DNA from: Cytophagaceae bacterium | GTDB taxonomy: Bacteria; Bacteroidota; Bacteroidia; Cytophagales; Flexibacteraceae | Reading direction: 5' to 3' | Assembly (NCBI GenBank): GCA_027490155.1 | Contig: JAIXYP010000054.1 | Span: 1-64,000, forward strand | DNA length: 64,000 bases | In this document: in pieces, positions 12,284-31,983 of the stretch | Numbering within the stretch: the stretch's first letter is position 1 | Layout: each line of letters opens with the position of its first letter | Made by a program: the position numbers and the translations under genes | The notes under the pieces: generated by a model | The model's input: only the letters and a program-made list of their open reading frames with translations | Told to the model about the DNA's origin: nothing | Databases searched by the model: none

Positions 12284-13753
12284 CTATTGACTCACCACCA
12301 CCTTTCCATTCACAACCTGCCCAGCGGTCATGAGGCGATAAAAATAGACACCCATCGGGAGCTGACCTAGATCTAGGGCTTGGCCGGGCAACACCGACCA
12401 TTGTCCTACAGACTGCCCATTAACACTCACCAAACTAAGCTGGGCAGGGTTGTTGAGCCCCCGAAAGTTGAGTACCCCTGAGGTTGGGTTAGGGTATGGT
12501 GTGACTGCAATGGCTGCCACGGTGCTGTTGGGCAGGGCGACGGGGTCAAACTTGCGACCGATGCGGGCTACCTTGGTGAAGAGGTAGTCATTACTTGTGC
12601 CTACACCCCCGGTCGGCGGGCGACGAACTAGGTTGTAGCCTACCAAGATTGCACTTTCGTCGGGGTTGTAGACCATACTATAATAAATTCTGACTTCCTG
12701 ATACCCACCTAGACCAATTGGTACTTTTGAGATTGTAATACCATTGTTATCAACCTTCTCAAGATAATATAGACCTGTTCGATCGTCAGCAGATTGGAAA
12801 ACAATGCTACTATCCTGATTGATTGATGGAATGACGTTGCCAAGTCCAGAGCTGTCAACAAATCGTTGCCACAGAGGGTTCAATTGGCTGTCATACTTCC
12901 CTAGTATGTACTTGCTAGTGGTGCGGTAGTTGAAGGTTCCACTGGCAAGATATCCACCATCTGCCGTTCGTTGGACAGCAGCGTTATCGATCCCTACATT
13001 GTCAGGGGAGGTAAAGATGACTTTGGCAGTATCTCTAGTAAAACCATTGGAGTCCACTGGCAGCACGGCAATATGCTGCCCCTTTTGGCCAGAGACCAAG
13101 ATGCGGTTGTTGAAATCATTGCTGGCATAACACCAACAAGGAAATGGGTGGCGGGGGTTATATTGTTGGAGCCACTTTTGCTGCAGATTCTGGTCAAAAC
13201 GCCCCACCATCCAGTCGCATTGACTGGTGCCTAGTGTGCTAGGGGTGTTGTAGCCATAGGTTACGATATCACCGTTGGGGGCTTCGAAGAGGCCGAGGTT
13301 TTTAGCTCTTACCCCTCCATTTACGATTATTTCCTTCCGTGCAATTTCACGGCCCGCCGTATCACATTTGAGTAAGAACTGGTTATTGACTCTGGTGTAG
13401 TTTTGCAGCATCTGTTCGTAGACTATAACGTACAGAAACTTGTTACTATGGTAAATCAATCCATAACTCGCACCATAAAACCCTAACGTACGATTCCAGA
13501 GGGTGTCACCATTGGAATTGATTTTTGTTAAGGCTGCACCAGCATTACTTCTGATCGGTGGGCCACCTGGAACAGGGATTTGCCCACTTGCCCAAAATGT
13601 CTCACCACAAATGATGTAGCTGTTACTATCAATCTTAACAATTCCGTAGGCAATTTCAATTTGCCGATCAGGATAGACCTTATTCCAGATAACCTGTTGT
13701 CCAAAACTGGACAGTGAGCATACAAAGAAAGAAAGTGTGAGGAGGATTCTCAT
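12284..13753 (-). CDS. type IX-secreted protein, paralogue A
   Basis: A 489-residue exported protein, started at the ATG at 13753 because that begins the signal peptide (MRILLTLSFFVCSLSSFGQ). The open frame extends 65 codons further upstream, but that part only mirrors the end of the neighbouring gene. The middle contains WMVGRFDQNLQQKWLQQY and similar segments suggesting a beta-propeller-like surface protein. The last 75 or so residues (YPNPTSGVLNFRG to NGKVVVSQ) form a type A sorting domain for the type IX secretion system. It is a close tandem copy of the gene at 13828-15303. Ligand and function are unknown. Confidence 0.85.
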   Translation of the reverse strand: MRILLTLSFFVCSLSSFGQQVIWNKVYPDRQIEIAYGIVKIDSNSYIICGETFWASGQIPVPGGPPIRSNAGAALTKINSNGDTLWNRTLGFYGASYGLIYHSNKFLYVIVYEQMLQNYTRVNNQFLLKCDTAGREIARKEIIVNGGVRAKNLGLFEAPNGDIVTYGYNTPSTLGTSQCDWMVGRFDQNLQQKWLQQYNPRHPFPCWCYASNDFNNRILVSGQKGQHIAVLPVDSNGFTRDTAKVIFTSPDNVGIDNAAVQRTADGGYLASGTFNYRTTSKYILGKYDSQLNPLWQRFVDSSGLGNVIPSINQDSSIVFQSADDRTGLYYLEKVDNNGITISKVPIGLGGYQEVRIYYSMVYNPDESAILVGYNLVRRPPTGGVGTSNDYLFTKVARIGRKFDPVALPNSTVAAIAVTPYPNPTSGVLNFRGLNNPAQLSLVSVNGQSVGQWSVLPGQALDLGQLPMGVYFYRLMTAGQVVNGKVVVSQ

Positions 13754-13827
13754 TATTCGACCTTTGAAAGTTTGTGGTGGTGGGTTTGACCGTCTTGGGT
13801 GTAGGAGAGGATCATGATGAACGAGGA

Positions 13828-15303
13828 TTAATGGCTGGTAACCACCACCTTCCCATGCACCACCTGCCCAGCAGTCATGAGGCGATAAAAATAGACACCC
13901 AACGGGAGCTGGCCTAGGTCTAAGGCCTGGCCGGGCAACACCGACCATTGTCCCACGGACTGCCCATTAACACTTACCAAACTAAGCTGGGCAGGGTTGT
14001 TAAGCCCCCGAAAGTTGAGGATACCGGCAGTTGGGTTGGGATAAGGCGTAACTGATAAGGCTGCCACCGTGCTGTTGGGCAGGGCGACGGGGTCAAATTT
14101 GCGACCGATGCGAGCGACTTTGGTGAAGAGGTAGTCGTAGCTTGTACCAGGGCCAGTACCAGGGGGTGGAACCCGTACCCAATTTAGGCCAACAAGAATG
14201 GCACTTTCATCTGGATTGTAGGCCATGCTATAATAACCGTTAATGGAGGTCAAATTTGGAATTCCAAGTGGAACTGTCCATTGGGTCGCATTATTGGAGT
14301 CTATTTTTTCTAGAAAATTTTGACCAACTCTGTCTGAACCATATTGGATTACGATAGAACCATCTTGGTTAATTGTAGGTATGACAGCGCCTAGTCCAGC
14401 GCTATCTTCATATCGTTCCCAAAGAGGATTAAATTGGGCATCATACTTACCGAGAATGTACTTCGCATAAGTGCGGTAATTCATTGAACCAGAAGCGAGA
14501 TACCCCCCATTTGCCATTCTTTGAACTGCTACGTTTTCTATGCCAGCGTTATCTGGTGAGGTATAAAGCACCTTCGCCGTATCCCTTGTAAAACCATTGG
14601 AGTCCACGGGCAGCACGGCTATATGCTGCCCCTTTTGGCCCGAAACCAAGATGCGGTTGTTAAAGTCATTGCTGGCATAACACCAGCAAGGGAAGACGTG
14701 GCGGGGGTTATACTGCTGGAGCCACTTTTGCTGCAGATTCTGGTCAAAGCGGCCCACCAACCAGTCGCATTGACTGGTGCCAAGTGTGCTGGGGGTATTG
14801 TAACCGTAAGTCACGATATCACCATTGGGGGCCTCGAAAAGGCCTAGGTTTTTCGTCTTTACGCCACTACTTAAAGTAATCGCCTTACGTCCAAGTTCGT
14901 TGCCGGCAGTGTCACATTTTAGTAGATATTGGTTATTGACCCTTGTGTAATCTGGCAAAGTCTGTTCCCACACCAGTACATAAAGAAACTTGTTGCTGTG
15001 ATAGATCAGCCCAATGCTTGAACCGAAATACCCAAGGTTACGATTCCAGAGGGTATCCCCATTGCCATTAATGCGGGTTAATGAAGCACCAACAGGACTG
15101 TTAAACGGATTACGATTGGGAATTGTAATCCTATTTCCTGCCCATGTAGATTCACCGCAAATCAAATAATGATTTGTGTCAATCTTTGAAATTCCCCGTG
15201 CAATTTCATATCCATTAAATTGTAAGACCTTATTCCAGATAACCTGTTGTCCAAAAACGGACAGTGTGCAAACCAAGAAAGTGAGTGTGAGGAGGATTCT
15301 CAT
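13828..15303 (-). CDS. type IX-secreted protein, paralogue B
   Basis: A 491-residue tandem paralogue of the downstream gene, with the same signal peptide style (MRILLTLTFLVCTLSVFGQ), shared middle blocks such as NGDIVTYGYNTPSTLGTSQC and AVLPVDSNGFTRDTAKV, and the same sorting domain (YPNPTAGILNFRG to GKVVVTSH). The two differ mainly at residues 27-60 and in the stretch before the sorting domain. The 60 bp before both start codons are also nearly identical, so the duplicated unit included the leader. Both lie inside the dcw cluster on the opposite strand. Function unknown; surface attachment or secretion is inferred from the sorting domain. Confidence 0.85.
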   Translation of the reverse strand: MRILLTLTFLVCTLSVFGQQVIWNKVLQFNGYEIARGISKIDTNHYLICGESTWAGNRITIPNRNPFNSPVGASLTRINGNGDTLWNRNLGYFGSSIGLIYHSNKFLYVLVWEQTLPDYTRVNNQYLLKCDTAGNELGRKAITLSSGVKTKNLGLFEAPNGDIVTYGYNTPSTLGTSQCDWLVGRFDQNLQQKWLQQYNPRHVFPCWCYASNDFNNRILVSGQKGQHIAVLPVDSNGFTRDTAKVLYTSPDNAGIENVAVQRMANGGYLASGSMNYRTYAKYILGKYDAQFNPLWERYEDSAGLGAVIPTINQDGSIVIQYGSDRVGQNFLEKIDSNNATQWTVPLGIPNLTSINGYYSMAYNPDESAILVGLNWVRVPPPGTGPGTSYDYLFTKVARIGRKFDPVALPNSTVAALSVTPYPNPTAGILNFRGLNNPAQLSLVSVNGQSVGQWSVLPGQALDLGQLPLGVYFYRLMTAGQVVHGKVVVTSH

Positions 15304-17333: not shown

Positions 17334-19679
17334 CTAGTCGTTATTGCCATTGAAGTTAAAAGTGGTGCCAGTGCTGTTTGGCTTGGGATCCACGCGGTGG
17401 CTTCCGTTGCGGCCTTCGTGGTAGTCAAAGCTCTGGGAGTTGCCATTGTTTTTACGACTCTGGAATACGCGGCTATACCATGGGGCACCACCGTTGTTGC
17501 TGTAGCGACTGACATCACCCACGATGTCACCCATGTTGTCGTTCCGGATCTGGTTGAGGACTACACCACCAAACTTAGCACCATACTCTTGCAGGTTCTC
17601 TATGTTGCGCAGGTCTGCTTTGCTGATCACGGAGTAGCTTGGATAAACTGCAATGACTTTGTCGGCATATGGCATCAGCTCTTCGGTGTCATTGTATTGC
17701 AATAGGCTGCGACACTCGACGATGATGTAATCGTAATCCCTTCTCCAACGGTCGAATAGGCTCCTCCAGGCATAATCAGGCATGATTTCGCTTGGGGTCA
17801 TGCTGCTACGGCCTGTGCCAGCAACATCGATCCTTTTGGTGACCTCAGTTGTGTTGTTTGGCAAGACGAGGCTGTTCATGCCGTTGTTGATCAGCTCTGG
17901 GGCCTGGAACAAACGTGTAAGCTCGTTATTACGGAAGTTAGCATCAGCAAGTAGGACCCTTTTGCCGGTGAGGCCGAGGGCATAAGCCAAGGAGACAGCT
18001 ACTGTGGTTTTGCCAGCTTGCCCACTAAAATCAGTCAGGACATAGACTTTGGAATCAGGGTCTTGTTCGATCTGGGTACGGAGTGAACGCACCTGATTTT
18101 TGAACATCTCGAGCGAACCATCAGCTTGCTCCTCGCGGAATACCCTGCCAAGGTCGAACGAACCACTCGGGATCATATTTAGGCCAGCCACAGGGCGAAC
18201 ACCAGTTTCACGCTCGAACCCGGTTACGTTCCGGACACTATCATCAAAATAGTCAACAGCGAGGATGATAAGGGCCACTAACAAGAAGGCAGCAAAACCA
18301 GCAATGGCCACAAATAGCCAGATACGGTTGGTTTCTGGGCGCTCAGGCGCAACACCTTTCTCGATCGTTTTGAGGGCTTTATAGAAGTTTAAAGAGCCGA
18401 ACTGTAGGTCATTGAGTTTGTTTAGGATAACCAAGTAGGCCTGCATGTTGGTCTCGATCTCACGTTCTAGTTTGTTGATCGTGGCCTCATGCGGCGTATA
18501 GCTATTGATCTTGTTCTCGATCCGGTTGCTTTCGGCGTCAAGAGAAGAGGTAGCGTTTTTGGCAATTTCGAGGTCAAACTCGGCATTTAGCTGACGGTCC
18601 ACCAAGTTTTGTTTGGTCGTGTTTGGGTTCAGCAAGAATGCCTCATGATTGGTTTTTACTAGGTCATCAAACTCAGCACGGATCCTTTCGGCATTGCGTA
18701 GATAGACAGAGTCCCGCATGTTGCTCTCGACAAATTTGTCTTGATTTTCGGCAATCCGACGGCGATACTCTTCCATCCGGCGGTTGAAATCTCCAGATAG
18801 CGCCTCTAGATACTGACGCTTGCGGGGCGCAAACCGACCTTCAATTTCTTTAATGTTATTTTTGAGGCCGTAGAGGTTTTTGCGCTCTTGCTCGCGTGCG
18901 ATCTCAATGTCTTTTTGCTGATCAACGAGGGCTTTGGTTTGCTCGTAGAGGTTAATGACGCGGTTGCGCATCTTGTAGTTCTTGAGCTCTTCGACTTTGG
19001 CTTCCATCTCAAGGCGTTTGCGCTCAGCCAATCGACGTAGGTACTCCAATAAGTTGTTGTTATTGCTAAGGCTAACTTGGTTCCGGATTGTCATCAGGAT
19101 CTCGCATGCTCTGTTGACGGCGAAAGCAGAAAGCTGTGGGTTTTCGCTGCCAAACTCAATTTTCATGTAGTCAGACTCGGGCACACGTGTGACTGATGTG
19201 GCACGGTTGATTGACTCGGCATCATATCCGTACGAACGAAGCAAACGATAGAGTAAATCTTCGGTGCTGGCGTTGGCAGACAAAATGTTCTCGGCCTGGA
19301 GTTTGCGACGTAGTAGGGCAATCATGCCACCTTCGTCCACAGCCAGCTCTTTGGACGGTGTCCGGAAGGCTTTGCTTTTGTTCTCGAGGTCATGCAGGAG
19401 TAGCTCGTAGCCTACAGCAGTGCTCAGTGGCTGGGACTTAATGAGCTCCATAAGGTTAGCAAACTTGGTGTTTACCTCAAATGGCTGCATATAAACGTAG
19501 CCCCCAAGTGGGTTGCCTTCGCTTTGCTCGGTGATGCCAGTAGCCATAATGGCACGCGCCTTGTAGGTTTTGGGCAGGCTAGCAACTACCAAGAAGACGA
19601 TCAGCATTACTACTAGCGGGATGCCGAGCAGTAACCATTTCCTCCGCCAGAGGATGTTGAAATAATACGATAGTTCCAT
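17334..19679 (-). CDS. Wzc-like polysaccharide copolymerase with BY-kinase-type domain
   Basis: A 781-residue inner-membrane protein, last gene of the polysaccharide operon. A first transmembrane helix at 14-34 opens a Wzz domain, followed by a long coiled coil (about 200-430) and a second helix at 452-476. The cytoplasmic ATPase domain (about 520-710) has Walker A SGQAGKTT (552-559, Lys557) and Walker A' LLADAN (Asp579). The Walker B position reads YIIVECRS, with Glu655 where an Asp is usual. The C-terminal tail is Asn/Ser-rich with few tyrosines, not the usual Tyr cluster. It probably sets chain length and couples export; kinase activity is uncertain. Confidence 0.88.
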   Translation of the reverse strand: MELSYYFNILWRRKWLLLGIPLVVMLIVFLVVASLPKTYKARAIMATGITEQSEGNPLGGYVYMQPFEVNTKFANLMELIKSQPLSTAVGYELLLHDLENKSKAFRTPSKELAVDEGGMIALLRRKLQAENILSANASTEDLLYRLLRSYGYDAESINRATSVTRVPESDYMKIEFGSENPQLSAFAVNRACEILMTIRNQVSLSNNNNLLEYLRRLAERKRLEMEAKVEELKNYKMRNRVINLYEQTKALVDQQKDIEIAREQERKNLYGLKNNIKEIEGRFAPRKRQYLEALSGDFNRRMEEYRRRIAENQDKFVESNMRDSVYLRNAERIRAEFDDLVKTNHEAFLLNPNTTKQNLVDRQLNAEFDLEIAKNATSSLDAESNRIENKINSYTPHEATINKLEREIETNMQAYLVILNKLNDLQFGSLNFYKALKTIEKGVAPERPETNRIWLFVAIAGFAAFLLVALIILAVDYFDDSVRNVTGFERETGVRPVAGLNMIPSGSFDLGRVFREEQADGSLEMFKNQVRSLRTQIEQDPDSKVYVLTDFSGQAGKTTVAVSLAYALGLTGKRVLLADANFRNNELTRLFQAPELINNGMNSLVLPNNTTEVTKRIDVAGTGRSSMTPSEIMPDYAWRSLFDRWRRDYDYIIVECRSLLQYNDTEELMPYADKVIAVYPSYSVISKADLRNIENLQEYGAKFGGVVLNQIRNDNMGDIVGDVSRYSNNGGAPWYSRVFQSRKNNGNSQSFDYHEGRNGSHRVDPKPNSTGTTFNFNGNND

Positions 19680-19940: not shown

Positions 19941-21041
19941 TTATTTAACTTCTTCGAGTTTGACGCCGATCCACTCCTCGAGGTAAGCCTTGGCCATAAA
20001 CATATTGTGGCGGCTGGTGATCACGAGTTGGGCTGCATCAGCATAGGCTTTTTGGATTTTGGCAAATTCTTCGACTGGAACTTGACCTGTCTCGAAGTTG
20101 AGCTTCATGACTTTGAGGGTCATTTCCTGCTCGTTGGCTAGTTCGGTCTCGCTCTTGGTGAGGTTTTTATACATCAAGAAACTCTGATACCGTTTAATTG
20201 TCTCGGACCTCATGAAGTGTTTTTGGTAGTTGAGATCTGCCTGAGCAATGTTGGTGCCCTCACGGCTATTCCTGACGCGGCTACCGTAGTTTACAAACTG
20301 CCCAAGGTTGAAAGACAGACCAGCACCAAGGCCACTTGGGGCAGCACTGATCGTTGGGCGTGCACCAGCACCGTTGCCATAGTCAGTAAAGTTGGTTTGG
20401 GCAAAGAAAACGATATCCGTGAACCAAGATCTTCGTGTCTGGAGGTGATACTCTTGCGTTTGTTTAAGTTTAGCCTCAAGGCCACGGTTGATTGGTAGGT
20501 TTTTCCAGGCGGTTTGTACTAAACGTTCCTCAAAGTCAGCAGGGAATGAGTCCTCTGGCATTATCAAACGACGATAGTCGGTTGTAGGGACATTATAGCT
20601 AGCCGCATAGGTTGCACTACTGTCTTCATAGCTTGTCGCACGTGCATTTTTGGTACCACGATCCGTGCGGTCAGCATTTGTCTTGGTAGAGCCAGCCTTT
20701 TGTTTGGCTGGCGGATCAACATAAATGGTTTCGGGCTGGATGCGGTTTGCTGGCGGACGCTCAACATATACTGTTTCGGGCTGAACTCTGGTAGCTGGCC
20801 TAGGGGCTGATTGTTGTACAGGCGGACGCTCTACATAAACGGTTTCGGGCTGAATGCGGCCTTGTGATGCAGGGCGCTCTACGTAAACAGTTTCTGGCTG
20901 CACAGTACCAATCGGACGACGCACTGGGGTAGGCTGTGGTGCTGAGGACGAGGAGCTGCTGCTACTGCTGCTCCGTGGCTGAGCAATTGACAGCGCAACG
21001 CTACTGACAAGGACTAGGATGCTTAATAATATGTTTTTCAT
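19941..21041 (-). CDS. exported TolC-like protein with QPET repeats
   Basis: A 366-residue protein started at the ATG at 21041, which begins a signal peptide (MKNILLSILVLVSS...SIAQ). After a run of ten serines come four copies of QPET-V/I-YV-E/D-R/P-P starting at residues 48, 64, 87 and 102. The C-terminal half (about 170-366) looks like one TolC/outer-membrane-efflux helical domain, with paired amphipathic helices and the segment LNYQKHFMRSETIKRYQSF. A complete TolC has two such halves. It lies between the Wzy-like and Wzc-like genes, so an outer-membrane export role is plausible. The repeats' function is unknown. Confidence 0.7.
   Translation of the reverse strand: MKNILLSILVLVSSVALSIAQPRSSSSSSSSSSAPQPTPVRRPIGTVQPETVYVERPASQGRIQPETVYVERPPVQQSAPRPATRVQPETVYVERPPANRIQPETIYVDPPAKQKAGSTKTNADRTDRGTKNARATSYEDSSATYAASYNVPTTDYRRLIMPEDSFPADFEERLVQTAWKNLPINRGLEAKLKQTQEYHLQTRRSWFTDIVFFAQTNFTDYGNGAGARPTISAAPSGLGAGLSFNLGQFVNYGSRVRNSREGTNIAQADLNYQKHFMRSETIKRYQSFLMYKNLTKSETELANEQEMTLKVMKLNFETGQVPVEEFAKIQKAYADAAQLVITSRHNMFMAKAYLEEWIGVKLEEVK
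20709..20906 (-). repeat. four QPETVYVERP-type coding repeats
   Basis: Four degenerate copies of a 10-residue motif (QPET[VI]YV[ED][RP]P), spaced 15-23 residues apart, in the N-terminal linker of the TolC-like protein. The Pro/Arg/Tyr content suggests an extended, possibly peptidoglycan- or partner-binding segment. Confidence 0.85.
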
Positions 21042-21155: not shown

Positions 21156-22742
21156 TTATGTCAGTGGTACCGAGTTTTGGTTGGTGAAGGCTCTACTCAT
21201 TCCGATGGACCCTGAGTGGTATGGATTGAGATTCTTGGATGGCGAAGAGGTATCTGTGAACTGTTTCTTCTGATCCAGCTCGTATAGCTTGGTGCTCATT
21301 GCAAGCATCACGAAGAAAATCAGGTTATTCGGGATCTGTCCGATGGCTTCTTGTGGGAAGTTCGCTACGGTCAGGATCAACAAACCAGCAAGCAGTGCTA
21401 TACTGAAGTTCTGGAGCTTAGGGTCCTGGATCTTGTAATGATTTTTGACGCCGTTATTGAAGGTAACGAAAAACAGCAAGAGGTACACAAATAGGCTTAC
21501 ATAGCCTTGCTCCACAGCAACACGGACAAAGCCGCTATCAGGCGGGAAGTCAGCCAAAGGAGCACCTTGGCTAAAACGTTTGCCCCAATAACCTGTTGAT
21601 CCTAGGCCAGCACCAAATGGCAGGCTTTGGATAAAGGGCTTAACGAAAGCCTTGTTCGCTTCGCGGACTTTATAGCTTTCATCTTCCTCTGGGCGGAAGG
21701 CTGTCTGGAACCGAATAAGGTTTAGGTTGCCACCTGTTGGCATTTTAGCCAAGATAAAGCCTATCGCAAAGACTGCCACCGCAAGAGCTATGATGTTGCG
21801 CTTGAGGGTAATGGTACTAAAGAAGGCAATCCCGACTGGGAAGGCAATATAGGCAGCGCGGGTACCCGAGTGGATCATGGCTGTTGCCATCAGGATGGAT
21901 AAAAGGATCAGGCCAATCCGATAGGATGCACGATAAGGGCCAGAGGCCAAAATCAAACAAACTACACTGGTGAGAGCCATGAAAACGCCATAGATCATTG
22001 GGTCAGACAGGAAACTAAACTTCCGAAAACGCCCCATGATGTATAGCAGACCGTAACGTTCGGAGTCCATCATGATCCAGTCGGTCTCGAACTGGAAGAA
22101 GCCGACGTACTCCTGTTTGAGGCCGTACAGCATTACCAAGATGGCCAAAACGACCCATAATTTCATCAAGTTGGTGATGTACTTGACGTTGTCGACAGCA
22201 TAAAGCGTCACATAGTACATTACCATGAAGCCAGCTGTTGACCGTACGGTATAGACCCAAGCCAACCTACTAGCAGCTATCGGATTAAAAAGCTGGATAA
22301 AAATCATCAAAATCCAGATGCCAACCATGTAGGCAACTGGGTTGTGCATAAATTTCCAACTTGCCCGTTGGTTTATCTGCCGTGCTAGCAGACCAACAAA
22401 CGTACCTGCAATCATGATGTCCATGGCTAGGCCAACAGGGGCTTCGCCTACAAATCGTTTGATGCCAAGGACGAAAAAGGACAAGCCAAAGATCATAAAC
22501 AGCCCCGCTTTCTGGTTAACGACGGCAGCCATAAAAAATGGTAAACCAATCAGGCTCACCACGATCGTGATGCCGATTTTGTATCCCGCCATGACCATGC
22601 CATACCCCATGCAGCTACACATCACGAGCATAATGAGGATACCGAAGGGCGTACTGAACCGATTCTCCTTAAGGGCATGAAACTGACGGGCCAGAAATGA
22701 ATCTGCCTTAAGTTCCTGTATTTTGAGATTAAACGTGTCCAT
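21156..22742 (-). CDS. O-antigen ligase/polymerase family membrane protein (Wzy-like)
   Basis: A polytopic membrane protein of 528 residues when started at the ATG at 22742; a longer start at 22808 would overlap the upstream glycosyltransferase. About twelve hydrophobic segments are visible. The motif region SGTRAAYIAFPVG followed by a large loop with PDSGFVRVAVEQGYVSL is typical of the Wzy_C/O-antigen ligase superfamily. In this operon it most likely polymerises repeat units at the periplasmic face. The C-terminus is a Ser/Asn-rich cytoplasmic tail. Confidence 0.87.
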   Translation of the reverse strand: MDTFNLKIQELKADSFLARQFHALKENRFSTPFGILIMLVMCSCMGYGMVMAGYKIGITIVVSLIGLPFFMAAVVNQKAGLFMIFGLSFFVLGIKRFVGEAPVGLAMDIMIAGTFVGLLARQINQRASWKFMHNPVAYMVGIWILMIFIQLFNPIAASRLAWVYTVRSTAGFMVMYYVTLYAVDNVKYITNLMKLWVVLAILVMLYGLKQEYVGFFQFETDWIMMDSERYGLLYIMGRFRKFSFLSDPMIYGVFMALTSVVCLILASGPYRASYRIGLILLSILMATAMIHSGTRAAYIAFPVGIAFFSTITLKRNIIALAVAVFAIGFILAKMPTGGNLNLIRFQTAFRPEEDESYKVREANKAFVKPFIQSLPFGAGLGSTGYWGKRFSQGAPLADFPPDSGFVRVAVEQGYVSLFVYLLLFFVTFNNGVKNHYKIQDPKLQNFSIALLAGLLILTVANFPQEAIGQIPNNLIFFVMLAMSTKLYELDQKKQFTDTSSPSKNLNPYHSGSIGMSRAFTNQNSVPLT

Positions 22743-22762
22743 TGGATCTTGGTGCTGTTGGG

Positions 22763-23713
22763 CTAAACGGCCTGTAAGAGATTGAAACTGTCTGGGCTGA
22801 GGTGCCACTTAAGGGTCTCGGCATAGACTTGTTTGTTGGCCTTGCTCTCTTGGTCAGAGAACGGCATAAATCTACAGTACCAAAGCACAAGGTAGATACT
22901 GGCACGGAGGCGGTACAACCAATAGTCGGTCAGGCCATAGTGCTTTAGCAAAAAGATATAGAAACTCTTATAGTTCTGGATAAACATCGCAGCCTTACGC
23001 TGGCGTGTGCTCGCGCGGCCGATGTGGACAATGTTGGCTTCGGAGCAGAACCAGCTATCACGGCCAGCCTTTTGAGCCCGCATGAAGTAGTCCATCTCCT
23101 CAGCATAGATGTAGAAGCGCTCGTCGAGGTTGCCAATAGAGCCTAGGAAATCACGGCTGAAAAGCATCACGGCACCATAGGCCCAGTCGATCACCTTGGT
23201 AGTGTCATGTGCCCAGCCATTGCTCTGGAACTTGCCGAAGATGCCGAACTTAGAGGCCAGATCGGTAAAGAATCTGTTTTCCAGGAAAGACCTGCCGAAG
23301 CTATAGAACTTATGGACAGAACGTTGGAGCGTCCGGTCATCATTGAGCAAACGTGAGGTAATAATCCCGAGTTTAGCAGCTGGTTTGCTGTCTGCAAAGG
23401 CAATCATTTTGTCGATGGCAGAATCCAATACAACTGTATCTGGGTTAAGCAAGAGCATGTAACGGCCGGTACCAATCTCGAGGCCTTGGTTGTTGGCTTT
23501 TGCAAAACCTAGATTTTGGGCATTGGCGATCAAAATCACCTCTGGAAACTCGGTGGCTACCATCTGTGCAGAGCCATCTGCGCTGTTATTGTCAACCACG
23601 ATCACTTCGGCCACGAATGCAATCATCTCGGTCTGGATCGACCGCAAGCAGGCACGCAGCAAGTTGGCTGTGTTCCAGTTTACGATGATAACAGATACGT
23701 CAGGACTATGCAT
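22763..23713 (-). CDS. family 2 glycosyltransferase
   Basis: A 316-residue GT-A enzyme. The N-terminus VSVIIVNWNTANLL and the VVDNNSADGS loop form the nucleotide-sugar site, and LLLNPDTVVLD supplies the metal-binding acidic residue. The C-terminal part resembles rhamnosyltransferase-like proteins, with EEMDYFMRAQKAG. It would add one sugar to the lipid-linked repeat unit. It sits 20 bp before the Wzy-like gene and about 65 bp after a very small membrane protein gene. Confidence 0.9.
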   Translation of the reverse strand: MHSPDVSVIIVNWNTANLLRACLRSIQTEMIAFVAEVIVVDNNSADGSAQMVATEFPEVILIANAQNLGFAKANNQGLEIGTGRYMLLLNPDTVVLDSAIDKMIAFADSKPAAKLGIITSRLLNDDRTLQRSVHKFYSFGRSFLENRFFTDLASKFGIFGKFQSNGWAHDTTKVIDWAYGAVMLFSRDFLGSIGNLDERFYIYAEEMDYFMRAQKAGRDSWFCSEANIVHIGRASTRQRKAAMFIQNYKSFYIFLLKHYGLTDYWLYRLRASIYLVLWYCRFMPFSDQESKANKQVYAETLKWHLSPDSFNLLQAV

Positions 23714-24021: not shown

Positions 24022-24657
24022 TTAACCCTGTTTAATTTGGTCCCAAGTACCTGTAAGGGAACTGTATTTTTTGATTGGTTTTGCTGGGTTTCCGGCCACA
24101 ATCGTGTAAGAAGCTACATCCTTAGTGACCACACTACCTGCCGCTACGATGCTATGTTTGCCAATCTGGACACCTGCAGTAATGACTGCATTGGCCCCAA
24201 TCCAGGCCTCATTTTCTATGACAATCAGCTTGGTATCGACTGGCTGGCGCCATATCGGGAGGGTCAAGTCTTGATACTGATGGTTCAGCCCACTGATCAC
24301 GATGTTCTGGGCTAGGATAACATCATTGCCGATCGTGACTGGACCTATTAGAACGCAGCCGATACCGATACGGGTATTATCTCCGATAATCACATCCCCT
24401 ACGCCATTGTTTACAGTAGAGTAGGACTCGATGGTGCTAAAGTCTCCTAGACTATACTTATTGAACGGCAAGATATCCTGTCGGCAAGGGCTGACGATGG
24501 TGCTGCCACGGCCATAGTGATGGATAAAGGGGTTGAGGAACCACTTGACCCAAAGCCTTGGCTTGGCTTGTCCTGAGGGCATGAGGATCCAAAGTGTCCA
24601 ACGCTTCAAGGCGGGGCTTGTCTTGAGGCGATCCTTTAGCCTATTGATTAGTCCCAT
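24022..24657 (-). CDS. hexapeptide-repeat acyltransferase
   Basis: A 211-residue left-handed beta-helix acyltransferase. Hexapeptide repeats run from about residue 85 (IGDNTRIGIGCVLIGPVTIG) to the end, interrupted by a catalytic loop with LNHQYQDLTLPIW. The C-terminus VVTKDVASYTIVAGNPAKPI is typical of WcaF/CysE-like O-acetyltransferases. It probably decorates the exopolysaccharide or a lipid-linked intermediate with an acyl group. It overlaps the upstream glycosyltransferase by 17 bp, a sign of tight operon packing. Confidence 0.88.
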   Translation of the reverse strand: MGLINRLKDRLKTSPALKRWTLWILMPSGQAKPRLWVKWFLNPFIHHYGRGSTIVSPCRQDILPFNKYSLGDFSTIESYSTVNNGVGDVIIGDNTRIGIGCVLIGPVTIGNDVILAQNIVISGLNHQYQDLTLPIWRQPVDTKLIVIENEAWIGANAVITAGVQIGKHSIVAAGSVVTKDVASYTIVAGNPAKPIKKYSSLTGTWDQIKQG

Positions 24658-25876
24658 CTTCCTCTACTTGATTGATGACACCATAAATTTCTTTTACGTT
24701 GTTTTCCCAGCTATGGCTCATCGCAAATGTACGGCGCTGTTGTGCTTGCTCCTTTGTATTGGTCTGGAGGGCATGGTCGATGACGCTAATCCACTCGTCC
24801 ACTCCATCTGCCAAGAGGCAATGGTTTCCAAAGGCTTTCATAAACTCTGTGCGGGTGGCCACTGCAGGTTTACCCATCGCTAGGTACTCATCTATCTTGA
24901 GTGGATAGTTGCCTTTGGTGATCTCGTTATGAGCCTGTGGGTTGATGCAGACGTCAGAGTGATAGATATAGGCAGGCACGATATTGATGTTTTTTTTGCC
25001 TAGCAACAAGACATTGCCTAGTTGGTGAAGCTTGCTGTTAGCAAAGGCATCATCTTCGGGCCCGACCATGACCCAATCCCAGTCTGGCCTTGCCTCTGCC
25101 ATACCAATCATAAGGTCCAGATCGAGCCTGATGGCGGTAAGGTAGCCAGTATAGATAATTTTGGGCCGATTATCTGCAGGAAGGTCAAAGGGTAGCTCCC
25201 AGTCCTTGTCTGGGTTAAAGTGGGTAGTATTACAGCCTTGGCCTATGTAGTATGCTTTGGCGGTGTGCTGGGCGGCCCATTCGCGTAGATACTCTGAGTT
25301 GGCCACCACAGCTGTTGCTTTAACCATGTGGACGGGCTCGAGCCGACGTCCATGACGCTGCCAATACGGGACGCCCTGTAGGAAATCGCGGGTATAGTAA
25401 AGATAGGTTGTGCAGGGGAGATAATCCTTTAAGAAACAGCAGCGCAACGCATCACTATCGACCAAGACGATTACATTTTTGAAGCCTAGGGCATCGGCAG
25501 CTTGTTGGACATTGGCGGCCAAACGTTTGGCATTGAGGCGATTGAGTTTTTCATAGATCAACCCATCTGGCAAAAAATTGATGCTCTCTAGCGTAAGGAC
25601 GGGGTCCATCAGCCAGATGTTTTTGCGGTCGATCAGGGGGCGGACCGAAGGGCGTGTACCCTTCAGGACTTCCTTCTTGCGCTGGACATTAGGGTCAGTG
25701 GCTTGGCGGTAGGCCGTAATCCGATCTAAGGGCGGGTCGACGTACAGGACTCTGTTGCCACTAGTGGCAATTTCGAGCGATATGTTGCGGCTATTGCTGC
25801 CTGTCTCGACAAACCATGACAAGACCGAAAAGACGATAAAGTCTCTGCCTGTGATGTTTTTGTTTGGGTTGTCCAT
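24641..25876 (-). CDS. GT-B glycosyltransferase (TuaH-like)
   Basis: A 411-residue GT-B fold glycosyltransferase. The N-terminal half opens with IVFSVLSWFVETGSNSRNIS and VLYVDPPLDR, a pattern seen in teichuronic acid-type TuaH proteins. The C-terminal domain has IIYTGYLTAIRLDLDL and the donor-site segment PLKIDEYLAMGKPAVAT. It is soluble with no membrane segment, and probably acts at the inner membrane on lipid-linked saccharide. Specificity is unknown. Confidence 0.85.
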   Translation of the reverse strand: MDNPNKNITGRDFIVFSVLSWFVETGSNSRNISLEIATSGNRVLYVDPPLDRITAYRQATDPNVQRKKEVLKGTRPSVRPLIDRKNIWLMDPVLTLESINFLPDGLIYEKLNRLNAKRLAANVQQAADALGFKNVIVLVDSDALRCCFLKDYLPCTTYLYYTRDFLQGVPYWQRHGRRLEPVHMVKATAVVANSEYLREWAAQHTAKAYYIGQGCNTTHFNPDKDWELPFDLPADNRPKIIYTGYLTAIRLDLDLMIGMAEARPDWDWVMVGPEDDAFANSKLHQLGNVLLLGKKNINIVPAYIYHSDVCINPQAHNEITKGNYPLKIDEYLAMGKPAVATRTEFMKAFGNHCLLADGVDEWISVIDHALQTNTKEQAQQRRTFAMSHSWENNVKEIYGVINQVEEDGTNQ

Positions 25877-25934: not shown

Positions 25935-27272
25935 CTATTGGGGTTGTTGAGATCGATCTGATATGATGCTTAATCGCTTAAGTCCGATCTCGTAAGCAGT
26001 AAAGAGGTACCGGAATGAGCGGAACAATTTAATCTGAAAAAAACGATTCAGCAACCAAGCTGCTATCAGCAAAAAGACCAGCTGTGTTGTTAGCGTGGCT
26101 GATGCAGCCCCTATTGCTCCCCACCGTAGGATGAAGAAATAATTCAGTGCAAAGTTGAGAAAGGCCATTGAGAGGGCTATACCGAAATTGATATGGGGAT
26201 GGCCAGAGGAGTCCATCTGGGTGCCAAATTGCCTCAGGAAGGGTTGGAGCAGTGCGCAACATGCCAAGATGGGCAGAAGGGGTGCGGCAGCTAGGTACTT
26301 GGGCCCTGCGATCAGCAACATAATAGGCCCAGGGATGGCCCAGCACAATAATACAACTGGCAAAAGCAGCCCTACAATCGCCCCGACACCTTTGTAAAAC
26401 ACCGTTTTGACTTCTTCATTATCACCTTTGTGTTGGAGTGATACCTTATACGGGTATAGGATGCTGGCGGCTGTAGAGACGGGTACTTCTGCAAGTGTAT
26501 TGATCCGGACTGCAGCGTTATAGTCAGCCACAACGGACTTGGTTGTTAGGCCAGCCAAGAGGTATTGATCGACGCTACTATAAAGTATGGCACTGACATT
26601 GGTGCCAAAAACAAACTTCCCGAAATGCAATAACCGACTCACCCAGCCCCAATCCACGGTTGGTGAAAGGGCAAAATCACGTCCGACGCCGAGAATAGCA
26701 ACAATGCTACCCAGAGCTGCACAAATCAGCTGGACGACCGCCAAATGATGCAGATCTGGAGGGGAGTTAAGCCAAAAATGGTAGGCGATGTAGGAAAAGA
26801 AAAGTCCTGCTCTAATCAAAGTTGCAAGCAGAACAGGCCCAAAGTTGAGCCTAGATTGCTGCAGGACATTGATCTGGCTGAACGGGATTAGGCTCAGGGT
26901 AGTGAGGCCATAGATCCAGAATAAATCAACAATGATCGGTGACTTGAGCAAGTTGGCAAATAGTTGGCTACCTACACCTAAGAGGACGGCTGAAAGAACA
27001 CTAATGCCGATATTGATCGTCAGACTAGCCCGCATGATGTCACCTTCTTGCTCGGGGTGGGCTTTGAGGTACTTGATCTTGGCATTCTGGACCAGTCCGT
27101 TACGGGCCACTTCGATCAGGCTGATGGTTGTCATGAACAGGGCCCAGGTCCCAAATACATCTTTCGGTAACAGCCGAGCCAACAGAATGAAGCCACCAAA
27201 GCCAAACAAAAGCCCTAGTACATTCTGGACCAGCGAGTATAGTCCGGATGCAAGTAGTTTGTTATTAGGCAT
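25935..27272 (-). CDS. polysaccharide flippase (Wzx-like)
   Basis: A 445-residue integral membrane protein of the MOP/MVF superfamily with about 12-14 transmembrane helices. The N-terminal segment GLLFGFGGFILLARLLPKDV and the following LFMTTISLIEVARNGLVQNA are typical of lipopolysaccharide flippases. It would move undecaprenyl-linked repeat units across the inner membrane to the Wzy-like polymerase. It sits centrally in the operon, 46 bp after one GT gene and 58 bp before another. Confidence 0.9.
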   Translation of the reverse strand: MPNNKLLASGLYSLVQNVLGLLFGFGGFILLARLLPKDVFGTWALFMTTISLIEVARNGLVQNAKIKYLKAHPEQEGDIMRASLTINIGISVLSAVLLGVGSQLFANLLKSPIIVDLFWIYGLTTLSLIPFSQINVLQQSRLNFGPVLLATLIRAGLFFSYIAYHFWLNSPPDLHHLAVVQLICAALGSIVAILGVGRDFALSPTVDWGWVSRLLHFGKFVFGTNVSAILYSSVDQYLLAGLTTKSVVADYNAAVRINTLAEVPVSTAASILYPYKVSLQHKGDNEEVKTVFYKGVGAIVGLLLPVVLLCWAIPGPIMLLIAGPKYLAAAPLLPILACCALLQPFLRQFGTQMDSSGHPHINFGIALSMAFLNFALNYFFILRWGAIGAASATLTTQLVFLLIAAWLLNRFFQIKLFRSFRYLFTAYEIGLKRLSIISDRSQQPQ

Positions 27273-27318: not shown

Positions 27319-28425
27319 CTAATGGCCTAGCATTCGGTCATACAATTCCTTGTTTTGTTGTGCGACGGACGCAAAGTCATGGTGCTGGAGGCCGTAAACT
27401 CGTGCTGCACCTGCAATTTGGTTAGTTCTTTCTGGATCCAGAAGGACCATTCGCATGGCCTCTGTCAGTGGGTGGACTTCATTGATTGAAACTAGGGTTC
27501 CCGTAATACCATCCGTAATGACCTCTGCATTATTAAGGATGTCACTAGCAATACAATACCGGCCTGCCACCATACCTTCTATCAGGGACAAGGACAAACC
27601 TTCCCAACGAGAGGGTAGGACTAAACAATCGATAGAGGCAAGCTGAGAAGGCACGTCCTGGCTGAAGGCGCGAAGCTCTGCTTGGCCATTAGCAATTTCG
27701 GTCTTGAGTAGCTCTTTGACTGCAGGCTCAAGCTCACCACCACCGACAAAAACTAATCGTGCTTCGGGATATACAGCACTAAGCTGGCTAAAGGCTAGGG
27801 CTAATAGTTCGGGGTATTTTTGATAGGTCATACGCCCTACAAAGCCAAAGGTAACTTTGTGTCGTTGGACCTGAAGTGGTGGTATGGCGGCAAATTCAGC
27901 CACTGGGATGCCGTTTACGATGACATCTGGCTTTGGGATATTGAGTGTTTGGGCACCAAATAATGCATCTTGTTGACCTACACAAACCACCTTGGTGGCC
28001 AGTTTGCAAATCCAGGACTCGATCTGTCGTCTGACGAACCGTTGGGCACCACCTAGGCCTGGGTGCATGGACCACCCATGGACGGTATAGATGCTTGGTA
28101 AATGGGCCCACTTGGCTGGCAATAGCACATTGCTGGCAGCACGAGTGCCATGTGCATGGACCAAACTAATGGTCTTGCGGTCGGCCAGCAGTTTGGCCAC
28201 AAGCCGAATGGTCTTGACATCGAAAGGAGAGGTGGTAGGGTAGTGGATCACCTCAAAACCCTCATCTCGGAGTTGTCGCCCGATCGCCCCATCCTGAAAG
28301 GTCAGGATCGTATTCAGGACACCCATCTGCCGTAAAGCCCGCACCAAGTTGGCCACATACATCTCGCCTCCACCAAAGGTCGTCTGGCGGATGGCATGTA
28401 AGATATGAATAGGCGTTGTGGGCAT
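27319..28425 (-). CDS. family 4 glycosyltransferase
   Basis: A 368-residue GT-B enzyme. The acceptor-side glycine motif is TTFGGGEMYVANLVRAL near the N-terminus. The donor-side domain has FGFVGRMTYQKYPELL and the family 4 signature LPSRWEGLSLSLIEGMVAG, with the two Glu of the EX7E motif. It is soluble or peripheral and probably elongates the lipid-linked repeat unit. Confidence 0.92.
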   Translation of the reverse strand: MPTTPIHILHAIRQTTFGGGEMYVANLVRALRQMGVLNTILTFQDGAIGRQLRDEGFEVIHYPTTSPFDVKTIRLVAKLLADRKTISLVHAHGTRAASNVLLPAKWAHLPSIYTVHGWSMHPGLGGAQRFVRRQIESWICKLATKVVCVGQQDALFGAQTLNIPKPDVIVNGIPVAEFAAIPPLQVQRHKVTFGFVGRMTYQKYPELLALAFSQLSAVYPEARLVFVGGGELEPAVKELLKTEIANGQAELRAFSQDVPSQLASIDCLVLPSRWEGLSLSLIEGMVAGRYCIASDILNNAEVITDGITGTLVSINEVHPLTEAMRMVLLDPERTNQIAGAARVYGLQHHDFASVAQQNKELYDRMLGH

Positions 28426-28472: not shown

Positions 28473-29741
28473 CTAGGATCGATCCTGTTGGGATGAATCG
28501 GATAATGATCCTTGATTGTCTAGGTCTTGGAGGTCCAGCACATGGGTATTGCTGGTGGCCAAGAAATCCTTCTTGGTTTCTTTTATCCTGAGCAGGGCAC
28601 GCATCAACCGACCCACAAATTGGGGCAGTCTCTTGACGGCATGGCTCATCTGGATGTTGGGCGCCATCTGGCTGACTGCAAAATGATAATTGATCAGGAA
28701 GGCTAAAATAGAGATGATCAAGCCAAGGGAAATGGCATAATGTGCAGTCGCCAAGCCAAGCAATGTCAGGAGTGACGCAGACAAGATCAGTACTACTACC
28801 GGAGGGAACATAAACCAAATGGCAAATAATATCCAGTGGATAGAACCACGAAGAAGGCCCTTTGCCAACAGCTCAAACCCAAGTGGTAGGTAAATAAAAT
28901 AGCTACCGAGCCAACGGGTTCGTTGACGCTCTAGCTGGGAGCCATCTGTGATTTTTTCGTCATAGACCAAGGCTCGCTCGGCAAACGCGATCCTGTGGCC
29001 AAGCATTATTGCTTTGACCTGCAGTAGCTTGTCTTCGGCGGGGATAACCTTTTCTGTCTGAAATACCTTTTCGGCCAAAATCTCTCTGTAGAGATCAACC
29101 GATAGAACCATACCAGACCCACTTACGGCGGAAGACCCACCTAGGAGAAATGGTACTCTGCGGTTGACAAAGTTGTAGTAGGCCTCTCCCATTCCGTCCA
29201 GTTGAGCGATCTGGTTCTGAGCATTTTTGGCAACTCGTTTGCCCTGGATGACATCAAAGCCAAGCTGCCAAAGTTTATTGGCCTCTGCAAGGAATTGTGG
29301 CGAGGCCAAGTTGTCTGGGTCGAAGATGACAGCAGCATTAAACTGGTCAGCCATGTGGTCCAGTGCAAGGTCAATGGCCCTAGTTTTGCTATTTAGGGCA
29401 GTGGCTGGGTAAAGAACACTGATACCGGCGTGGGCACTGATCTCGGGGTCTATAACACATTGATCGGCCACAACGAAGATGTGGTAGTCCTTGTGGGTTT
29501 GAGCCAACAAGGATCGTACCAATGGGGGAACCAATGCACCAGACTTCCAGGCTGTGATGATGATGCCAAACTTTGCTGGTTGGCGGTTTTTGGCCTCTGG
29601 TCCAGTAGCGATGGGGCTAATCGGTTCAACAGGTCGGCGAATGCAAAAAACTAGGCTAGCCAAAGGATGTAGCCACAAGAATGCACCAACCATCAGGCTT
29701 GCAGATAGCAAAATCCATGAAATTTGGTGATCAAATGGCAT
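28473..29741 (-). CDS. membrane-anchored family 2 glycosyltransferase
   Basis: A 422-residue GT2 protein. An N-terminal helix (about 8-28) is followed by a GT-A domain with IIITAWKSGALV, the acidic VIFDPDNLASP and the Q..R.RW acceptor motif QRTRWLGSYFIY. Three or four helices follow between about 290 and 355. The architecture is that of processive or membrane-associated transferases such as hyaluronan/cellulose-synthase relatives. In a Wzx/Wzy operon it is more probably a single-sugar transferase. The C-terminal tail is polar and Asp/Ser-rich. Confidence 0.88.
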   Translation of the reverse strand: MPFDHQISWILLSASLMVGAFLWLHPLASLVFCIRRPVEPISPIATGPEAKNRQPAKFGIIITAWKSGALVPPLVRSLLAQTHKDYHIFVVADQCVIDPEISAHAGISVLYPATALNSKTRAIDLALDHMADQFNAAVIFDPDNLASPQFLAEANKLWQLGFDVIQGKRVAKNAQNQIAQLDGMGEAYYNFVNRRVPFLLGGSSAVSGSGMVLSVDLYREILAEKVFQTEKVIPAEDKLLQVKAIMLGHRIAFAERALVYDEKITDGSQLERQRTRWLGSYFIYLPLGFELLAKGLLRGSIHWILFAIWFMFPPVVVLILSASLLTLLGLATAHYAISLGLIISILAFLINYHFAVSQMAPNIQMSHAVKRLPQFVGRLMRALLRIKETKKDFLATSNTHVLDLQDLDNQGSLSDSSQQDRS

Positions 29742-29791: not shown

Positions 29792-30562
29792 CTACTTATC
29801 TTTGACGAAGGACATCGTGAAACCAGAGGCAAAATAGTGAGGCAACTTAGTGGCCAACACACAGTCCCACCACTGAAGCCGTAGCCGTGACCTAAAGATG
29901 AGGGACAAGGGGAAAACCTTGGCGATAAAAGCGACTTTGCCGAACTTCAACATCTTGAAACCAGCGTCACGTCCTAACCTGACTAATGCAGATTTGGTAA
30001 AGTACTGTACGTGCGTGAGATCACCACTGGCACTTTGGCCTGTGACACCCTTGTACCCAAATAAGGACTTGATGCCCAAGTACAGCTTTTTGATTGGGCT
30101 TTTGAGGATAACCTGTTGTGGGCGGGTCACTAGGAGTTCGCGCGGGCCCCAACCATTTGGTACTGAGACACAGACCACACCATCTGGCTTGAGCAACTTG
30201 TTAATGACACGCATTACTGAAGCTGGGTCGTAAAGATGCTCTAATACCTCACTGCAAATGACGGCATCAAAGGGCTCAAGTGTCTCAATCTCCTCAGCGG
30301 GCAGCACTCTGAACTCCAGATTTTCACTGAAGACATTGCGTGCTTGTGCTATGGCGATGGTTTCTGGGCTTAGATCTACCCCTAATACTTTAAAACCTAC
30401 CCCTGCAAGCTGCAGACTAACATTGCCGTTGCCACAGCCAAGATCGAGTACCCGAGCATTCGTGCCACCAAAACGCTTGATGAGGGTGTCCTGAAAAAAA
30501 ACCAAGCGCCTAAAGTCCTCTGGCTCGCGGTAGTGGGAGTAATTGACAAATGACATTGGCAC
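29792..30562 (-). CDS. SAM-dependent methyltransferase
   Basis: A 256-residue class I methyltransferase. Motif I is RVLDLGCGNGNVSLQL (about residues 38-53), followed by the acidic LGVDLSPE and the post-motif EVLEHLYDP, typical of UbiE/COQ5-like Methyltransf_11 members. It is part of the polysaccharide operon and probably methylates a sugar or terminates chains, although small-molecule methylation cannot be excluded. An internal ATG two codons in may be the real start. Confidence 0.88.
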   Translation of the reverse strand: MPMSFVNYSHYREPEDFRRLVFFQDTLIKRFGGTNARVLDLGCGNGNVSLQLAGVGFKVLGVDLSPETIAIAQARNVFSENLEFRVLPAEEIETLEPFDAVICSEVLEHLYDPASVMRVINKLLKPDGVVCVSVPNGWGPRELLVTRPQQVILKSPIKKLYLGIKSLFGYKGVTGQSASGDLTHVQYFTKSALVRLGRDAGFKMLKFGKVAFIAKVFPLSLIFRSRLRLQWWDCVLATKLPHYFASGFTMSFVKDK

Positions 30563-30594: not shown

Positions 30595-31449
30595 CTATTG
30601 CGACTCGCTCTGCAACATGGCCGGGATGGTGAGAAAAATGATCTTCATGTCAAGCATGAAAGAGAAGTTTTCGGCGTATTCGTTGTCAAGGTCAACACGC
30701 TCTTGTTCGGACACGTTTGACTGACCTCTTTTGGTCACTTGCCATAAGCCAGTGAGGCCGGCAGGGGCCAAAAAGCGTTTGATGCTGCGGTCTGTGGTTA
30801 GTTTTTCGGCTTCGCTGAGTGGAAGGGGTCTGTTGCCAACTATGGACATATCGCCACGCAAGATGTTGAACAACTGTGGCAACTCGTCCAGGCTGGTGTT
30901 CCGGATAAAGTTACCAAGAGGGGTGATCCTTGGGTCGCGTTTGATTTTGAAGAATGCCTGTTTGGAACCTTTATGCTCGATGAAGAGGTTCTCGCAGACG
31001 ATTTTTTTGTCGTAAAATAGCTTTTCGCCGTTGCAAGTTTTGCCAGTCCGGAGGCAATCTTGGCAAAGGTTTTGAGGTTGGGTGGCGCCTTGGTACATAT
31101 TGAGGTGCCCTAACTTGTCGATAAGTCCATCGGCATTTGGCACCATGGACCGGAACTTAAAGAGTGGGAATATGCGGTAGTTTTGGCCGACGCGATTGGC
31201 AGCGTAAAAGATGGCTGCCGTGGGGTACTCTAGCTTGAGCAACAAAGCAATTACTGCAAGCACTGGCGACAATAATATGATTGCAATACCCGACCCGATG
31301 ATGTCGATGGTTCGTTTCCAGAATGGCACACCCCTAGCCCGCATTTTTTCGAGCACGGCAGCCTCGACTTGCTGTAAGGTCGCTTTCTCGGTAAGATGAC
31401 CTGCGCTTGTGGCTTGCTTCGAAGTTTTGTCGCTAGGTTTTGCGGCCAT
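30595..31449 (-). CDS. undecaprenyl-phosphate sugar-1-phosphate transferase
   Basis: A 284-residue initiating sugar transferase. After a polar N-terminus, a hydrophobic hairpin at about 47-72 leads to the catalytic domain with FPLFKFRSMVPNAD, RDPRITPLGNFIRNTSLDEL, PQLFNILRGDMSIVGNRPLP and GLTGLWQVTKRG. These are the landmarks of WcaJ/WbaP-type enzymes, which load the first sugar phosphate onto undecaprenyl phosphate. It is the first gene of the operon. Between FKFRSM and the RDPRIT block is an insert with Cys129, Cys132, Cys139 and Cys152, which may bind a metal. Confidence 0.93.
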   Translation of the reverse strand: MAAKPSDKTSKQATSAGHLTEKATLQQVEAAVLEKMRARGVPFWKRTIDIIGSGIAIILLSPVLAVIALLLKLEYPTAAIFYAANRVGQNYRIFPLFKFRSMVPNADGLIDKLGHLNMYQGATQPQNLCQDCLRTGKTCNGEKLFYDKKIVCENLFIEHKGSKQAFFKIKRDPRITPLGNFIRNTSLDELPQLFNILRGDMSIVGNRPLPLSEAEKLTTDRSIKRFLAPAGLTGLWQVTKRGQSNVSEQERVDLDNEYAENFSFMLDMKIIFLTIPAMLQSESQ

Positions 31450-31590: not shown

Positions 31591-31983
31591 TTAAAGGAGG
31601 TGTGGAAGACCTAGGGTGATGCACATACGTGCCTTAAGCTCAATAGGGTTGAAGGGCTTAACTAGGTAGTCACTAGCGCCTAGCTGGAAACATTTGATTT
31701 TTTCTGACGTTTTTTCGTTGGCAGACAGGACAATAACCGGGATTTCGGCCCAAGTTGTGTTGGCCTTGAGTCGCTCCAGTAATTGGTAGCCATTCAGGTT
31801 TGGCATGTTGATATCCGAGACGATTATGTCTGGTACATTGCCACCCTGTAACCATTGGAGGGCCTCGACGCCATCCGTTTTGGTAATCAGGTCAAAATTG
31901 TCACGTAGATAATTGGTAAGGAGCCAAACCATGGCTACTTCATCATCCACCAGTAACACTAACTTCTTGTCTGTTGCCGACAT
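31591..31983 (-). CDS. single-domain response regulator
   Basis: A 130-residue stand-alone receiver domain: acidic pair Asp13/Asp14, phospho-acceptor Asp57 in IIVSDINMPN, Ser87 in VIVLSANE and Lys109 in LVKPF. There is no output domain. It lies 141 bp upstream of the polysaccharide operon on the same strand, and no cognate kinase is adjacent. It may act by protein contact, for instance on the polysaccharide machinery or in a phosphorelay with the hybrid kinase at 53.6 kb; both ideas are inference. Confidence 0.9.
   Translation of the reverse strand: MSATDKKLVLLVDDEVAMVWLLTNYLRDNFDLITKTDGVEALQWLQGGNVPDIIVSDINMPNLNGYQLLERLKANTTWAEIPVIVLSANEKTSEKIKCFQLGASDYLVKPFNPIELKARMCITLGLPHLL

Follow-up and report, generated by a model that had tools for sequence, protein, structure and literature searches.

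The window, meaning the whole 64,000-nt stretch of DNA analysed here, contains a Wzx/Wzy operon on the minus strand in which a response regulator and an initiating sugar transferase are followed by glycosyltransferases, Wzx and Wzy, then by a gene we refer to as half-TolC, and finally by a Wzc-like gene. The series opens with a single-domain response regulator (31591..31983; Pfam Response_reg, E 1.2e-26) and an initiating phosphoglycosyl transferase (30595..31449; Pfam Bac_transf, E 4.6e-57). It continues with a methyltransferase (29792..30562, from reading the sequence), a membrane-bound GT2 glycosyltransferase (28473..29741; Pfam), a GT4-like glycosyltransferase (27319..28425, likewise read from the sequence), the Wzx flippase (25935..27272; Pfam Polysacc_synt_3, E 4.3e-18), a GT1/GT4-type glycosyltransferase (24641..25876; Pfam), a hexapeptide-type acetyltransferase (24022..24657, again a sequence reading), a second GT2 glycosyltransferase (22763..23713; Pfam) and a Wzy-type polymerase of the Wzy_C/O-antigen ligase family (21156..22808; Pfam, E 3.9e-9). 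The half-TolC gene (19941..21041) lies between wzy and the gene for a Wzc-like co-polymerase/ATPase (17334..19679), which has Wzz and nucleotide-binding domains. Pfam thus places the sugar transferase, Wzx, Wzy_C, Wzz and nucleotide-binding domains in one same-strand operon and gives no match to Poly_export (PF02563) on the window's contig, bearing out the first-pass annotation, which had described Wzx, Wzy and Wzc-like proteins with no Wza. No beta-barrel gene was recognised among the annotated genes of the operon.

The response regulator adjoins the initiating transferase, and this pair is kept in many half-TolC loci (L067, L071, L079, L117 and L129 among others). In Myxococcus xanthus, EpsW and EpsZ form a similar pair (PMC12802240). 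The regulator may act as a post-translational on-switch for the pathway. Elsewhere in the window, two tandem secreted paralogues (12284-13948 and 13828-15303, minus strand), 76% identical to each other, lie between murG-like and murC-like genes; their C-terminal ends resemble type IX secretion sorting domains.

The half-TolC ORF starts with an ATG at 21041 and encodes a 366-aa protein whose N-terminal extension is specific to the genus. Residues 1-20 (MKNILLSILVLVSSVALSIA, followed by Q; 20982..21041), ending ...SIAQ, look like a Sec/SPI signal peptide, and an AQ end is common in Bacteroidota. A run of ten serines occupies residues 24-33 (20943..20972). It is followed by four decamer repeats (20709..20900) starting at residues 48, 64, 87 and 102, three of which read QPETVYVERP and one QPETIYVDPP. 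When the repeat region was shuffled, none of 300 shuffles contained even two such decamers. TRF detected no tandem array at the DNA level, so the QPET units are irregularly spaced protein repeats; the stretch is probably a disordered linker. The C-terminal part of the protein has a single match to Pfam OEP (PF02321; residues 172-359, profile positions 2-187 of 187, E 9.3e-11). This domain (19965..20528) corresponds to a single structural repeat of TolC, two-strand beta hairpin included, as indicated by Pfam, the family profile and peaks of beta moment. As far as sequence can tell, the window protein is one complete TolC half. The initial description of an exported protein with a serine run, four QPETVYVERP-type repeats and one TolC-like half therefore agrees with the ORF, the sequence and Pfam. 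The 4.0-Mb window genome encodes about 10 full-length OEP proteins besides half-TolC, so the half size is not a genome-wide habit.

The single-repeat form extends well beyond this genus. A second genome of the genus has a copy with 98% identity and an identical gene layout. A search of genome contigs with the window protein alone matched only the near-identical MAG, and a search of viral contigs gave no match. With a 40-member family profile, half-TolC was found in 147 of 390 sampled genomes and 49 of 129 genera of the order, and high-scoring members of half length turned up in other classes of the phylum. Fifty-nine of 60 proteins are 218-307 aa long, the window protein being counted without its N-terminal extension; the remaining protein has an added FKBP domain. 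A homologue in another genus of the family is only 249 aa, lacks the QPET part and sits between Wzy and Wzc in a similar operon. The QPET extension is therefore local, and the repeats are absent from aligned homologues outside the genus. By these alignments half-TolC is the conserved feature and the QPET part a local decoration, neither conserved nor central; QPET as the key feature of the protein was rejected.

Several members of the family have features of their own. A publicly named instance is the "TolC family protein" WPO38839.1 of Flammeovirgaceae bacterium SG7u.111. Its half-TolC module (locus L138) is carried by the 53.6-kb plasmid CP139022.1, and the module may therefore move between strains. 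On the same plasmid, a gene of the endonuclease/exonuclease/phosphatase family lies directly 3' of half-TolC (L138:15639-16739), and ORFs of similar size follow half-TolC in L054-L056 and L059. Two divergent members, at L049:9810-10949 and L072:9336-10259, carry an FKBP-type prolyl isomerase domain at the C-terminus, and the latter seems to lack the beta-hairpin part. In two genomes half-TolC and Wzc looked as if fused into proteins of 944-965 aa, but these proved to be separate adjacent ORFs.

Canonical TolC has two tandem repeats, contributes four beta strands per protomer and forms a trimeric 12-strand barrel. The half-TolC family profile matches the two E. coli TolC repeats independently (2vdd, E 7.3e-20), with profile positions 32-226 aligning to TolC 226-428 and positions 44-225 to TolC 32-209. 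The half-TolC repeat thus aligns over its full length with either TolC repeat, in the order helix, beta hairpin, helices. The two highest beta hydrophobic moments of the family fall at the positions of the two strands that build the membrane barrel in TolC, which is indirect evidence that both strands are amphipathic as in the TolC/OEP family. While the whole OEP domain is matched, the protein has one repeat where TolC has two, and hence lacks the tandem repeats and four strands per protomer; it is best described from its sequence as a single-repeat member of the superfamily and not as a canonical TolC. The partner genes also differ, being wzc and wzy rather than those for an efflux pump or a type I secretion adaptor. 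A single-sequence AlphaFold2 prediction of the core gave a pLDDT of 38, too low for use.

Gene neighbourhoods link half-TolC to a Wzc and a Wzy, and separate it from Wza. Among 59 half-TolC loci whose genes were annotated by profile, a Wzc of the type found in the window is nearby in 50, and Wzy is likewise present in 50. The half-TolC and wzc genes are frequently neighbours that overlap by 4 bp. The nine loci with no paired Wzc nearby are explained in part by contig ends and dispersed genes. Neither Wza nor a Wza-type Wzc was annotated in any of the 59 loci. As a positive control, the same Wza profile was applied to 20 Poly_export loci from the same order; it recovered all 20 with E below 1e-73, and in 19 of them Wzc is adjacent to Wza. 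Applied to 41 half-TolC neighbourhoods of the order, the profile gave nothing better than E 0.03.

Additional evidence for a dedicated partnership came from the Wzc proteins themselves. In a maximum-likelihood tree of 54 Wzc proteins, one branch with support of 100/100 separates 34 half-TolC-paired from 20 Wza-paired proteins, and many genomes contribute Wzc to both sides. Like the co-polymerases of the Wzc/BY-kinase class (PCP-2a), the paired proteins combine a Wzz domain and a P-loop ATPase domain in one polypeptide. Unlike them, they form a separate clade in which the P-loop is kept, the Walker B Asp is changed to Glu or lost in nearly all members, and all 34 lack the C-terminal Tyr cluster that most Wza-paired Wzc proteins have. 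The window Wzc follows this pattern: Walker A is present, but the full canonical BY-kinase set (Walker A, A', Walker B Asp, Tyr cluster) is not, since the Walker B Asp is Glu and the tail has at most 2 Tyr per 20 aa, where the other Wzc of the genome has 7. Judging from these motifs, the members of the clade are candidates for natural pseudokinases or for co-polymerases under different regulation, and the changes resemble the BY pseudokinase idea put forward for M. xanthus (PMC12004946).

The two genes are also inherited together. The paired Wzc occurs in 144 of the 390 genomes; comparison by hand of the two genome lists placed both genes in 142, half-TolC alone in 5, Wzc alone in 2 and neither in 241. 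At least six genomes (G058, G070, G071, G172, G249 and G252) keep both genes on different contigs or far apart. Tree distances correlate at r 0.93 between half-TolC and Wzc, at r 0.85 between Wzy and half-TolC and at r 0.94 between Wzy and Wzc, whereas the value for Wzx of the same loci is r 0.53; neither these correlations nor the co-occurrence counts are corrected for shared ancestry, and Wzx serves as the internal control. Given the high values among half-TolC, Wzc and Wzy and the lower one for Wzx, the trio behaves as a single unit, with turnover of the flippase beside it.

Taken together, the distinct Wzc clade, the loci that lack Wza and the full-repeat homology to TolC offer good comparative support for the proposal, made at the outset, that half-TolC is a non-orthologous outer-membrane export component. 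The periplasmic adaptor suggested as the alternative finds no support, with the TolC beta hairpin kept and no adaptor domain found. We consider it likely, by a fair margin, that half-TolC supplies the subunits of an outer-membrane channel dedicated to this Wzx/Wzy exopolysaccharide pathway, and that it docks on its own Wzc and replaces Wza. From the comparisons above we infer a location in the outer membrane, an oligomeric state, docking on Wzc and polymer passage as follows. The protein would leave the cytoplasm by Sec export, and several copies would assemble into a TolC-like tunnel, each giving one TolC repeat with one beta hairpin and a helical coiled coil. With two strands per protomer, a TolC-like 12-strand barrel would need six copies, although other copy numbers are possible. 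The periplasmic end of the tunnel would dock on the helical arms that the adjacent Wzc-like protein has in the periplasm, and the polymer made by Wzy would exit through it. Half-TolC would then serve its Wzc as Wza serves the genome's other Wzc.

This proposal has to be weighed against the presence of Wza elsewhere in the same genomes. Half-TolC could be an accessory part with a role in gating, spacing or stabilising, with the polymer leaving through a Wza encoded at a distance. A Wza acting in trans is conceivable, as a Poly_export protein was found somewhere in all 147 half-TolC genomes searched for one (the window's own plus 66 plus 80, a set different from the 147 of 390 in the profile survey), leaving none without any Wza. 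The window genome has exactly one such protein, on contig C18, with Poly_export and SLBB domains. The first-pass annotation had held that a Wza elsewhere in the genome, working together with this locus, would speak against its reading. One Wza does exist, but it lies directly before its own Wzc, which belongs to the other clade, in the arrangement seen for Wza in 19 of the 20 control loci. Moreover, none of the 59 loci joins a half-TolC-paired Wzc to a Wza, and half-TolC appears to retain the parts for building a tunnel of its own. An accessory role is unlikely in our estimation.

A somewhat smaller chance attaches to the idea that half-TolC and its Wzc form a duct for another cargo, for example a small molecule or a glycan linked to lipid or protein. 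Most TolC relatives transport proteins or small molecules, and a paired Wzc with no Tyr cluster and an altered Walker B may not cycle like canonical Wzc. These points are offset by the presence of Wzy in 50 of 59 loci and its co-evolution with half-TolC and Wzc, and by the window operon, which yielded no ABC or RND pump and no adaptor domain. The presence of one repeat, compared with two in characterised TolC proteins, could also point to a full-length TolC gene that has been truncated or is decaying and serves no specific role. We regard this as highly improbable and reject it, since the single-repeat form is itself conserved, which contradicts it: the half length is kept over the phylum together with conserved motifs and synteny, and the window genome has separate genes for full-length TolC.

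The preferred reading, a half-TolC channel subunit docked on its own Wzc, has parallels with characterised export systems. Like Wza and other OPX proteins (PF02563; for the E. coli Wza-Wzc complex, see PMC12881504), half-TolC occupies the same place in a Wzx/Wzy operon and pairs with a Wzc-like partner, in 50 of 59 loci. It differs in being unrelated in sequence, with neither a Poly_export nor an SLBB domain, in not being a lipoprotein by sequence, and in having a partner Wzc of a different clade. The Wza-type genes seen here fit the short OPX proteins described from Bacteroidetes, which carry a C-terminal helix (PMC9601211). Published exits comprise OPX proteins (Wza), the beta-barrels of synthase pathways, and a third system in which an OPX protein and a beta-barrel form a composite (PMC9601211, PMC9603273). 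EpsY/EpsX of M. xanthus, a D1D2-OPX with an 18-stranded barrel, is an alternative outer-membrane exit for Wzx/Wzy polymers (PMC9601211, PMC9603273), as half-TolC would be, and the co-polymerase of that composite translocon also lacks canonical kinase features (PMC12004946). Half-TolC loci, in contrast, contain no OPX, no large beta-barrel was recognised in the window operon, and the duct would consist of TolC halves. The synteny surveys in these studies (PMC9601211, PMC9603273) start from OPX proteins and would thus be blind to OPX-less loci. A literature search, made without most subscription papers and all preprints, found no half-TolC in a Wzx/Wzy locus.

More tentatively, and with a little less than even confidence, we propose that a homo-oligomeric tunnel of TolC halves is a fourth kind of polysaccharide translocon, beside Wza-type OPX proteins, synthase-type beta-barrels and the composite OPX/barrel, and that it is widespread in Bacteroidota. 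Its copy number would be free of the three-fold pairing of TolC and could fit, for instance, a Wzc octamer; both partners are octamers in the E. coli Wza-Wzc complex (PMC12881504). Known exits are few, and Wzx/Wzy loci are expected to contain an OPX, yet here a phylum-wide set has half-TolC and its own Wzc lineage instead. If half-TolC is a true exit, pipelines that label it "TolC family protein" overlook complete export systems. A natural single-repeat TolC also bears on the origin of TolC by duplication, and on how the symmetry of a tunnel is matched to that of its inner-membrane partner.
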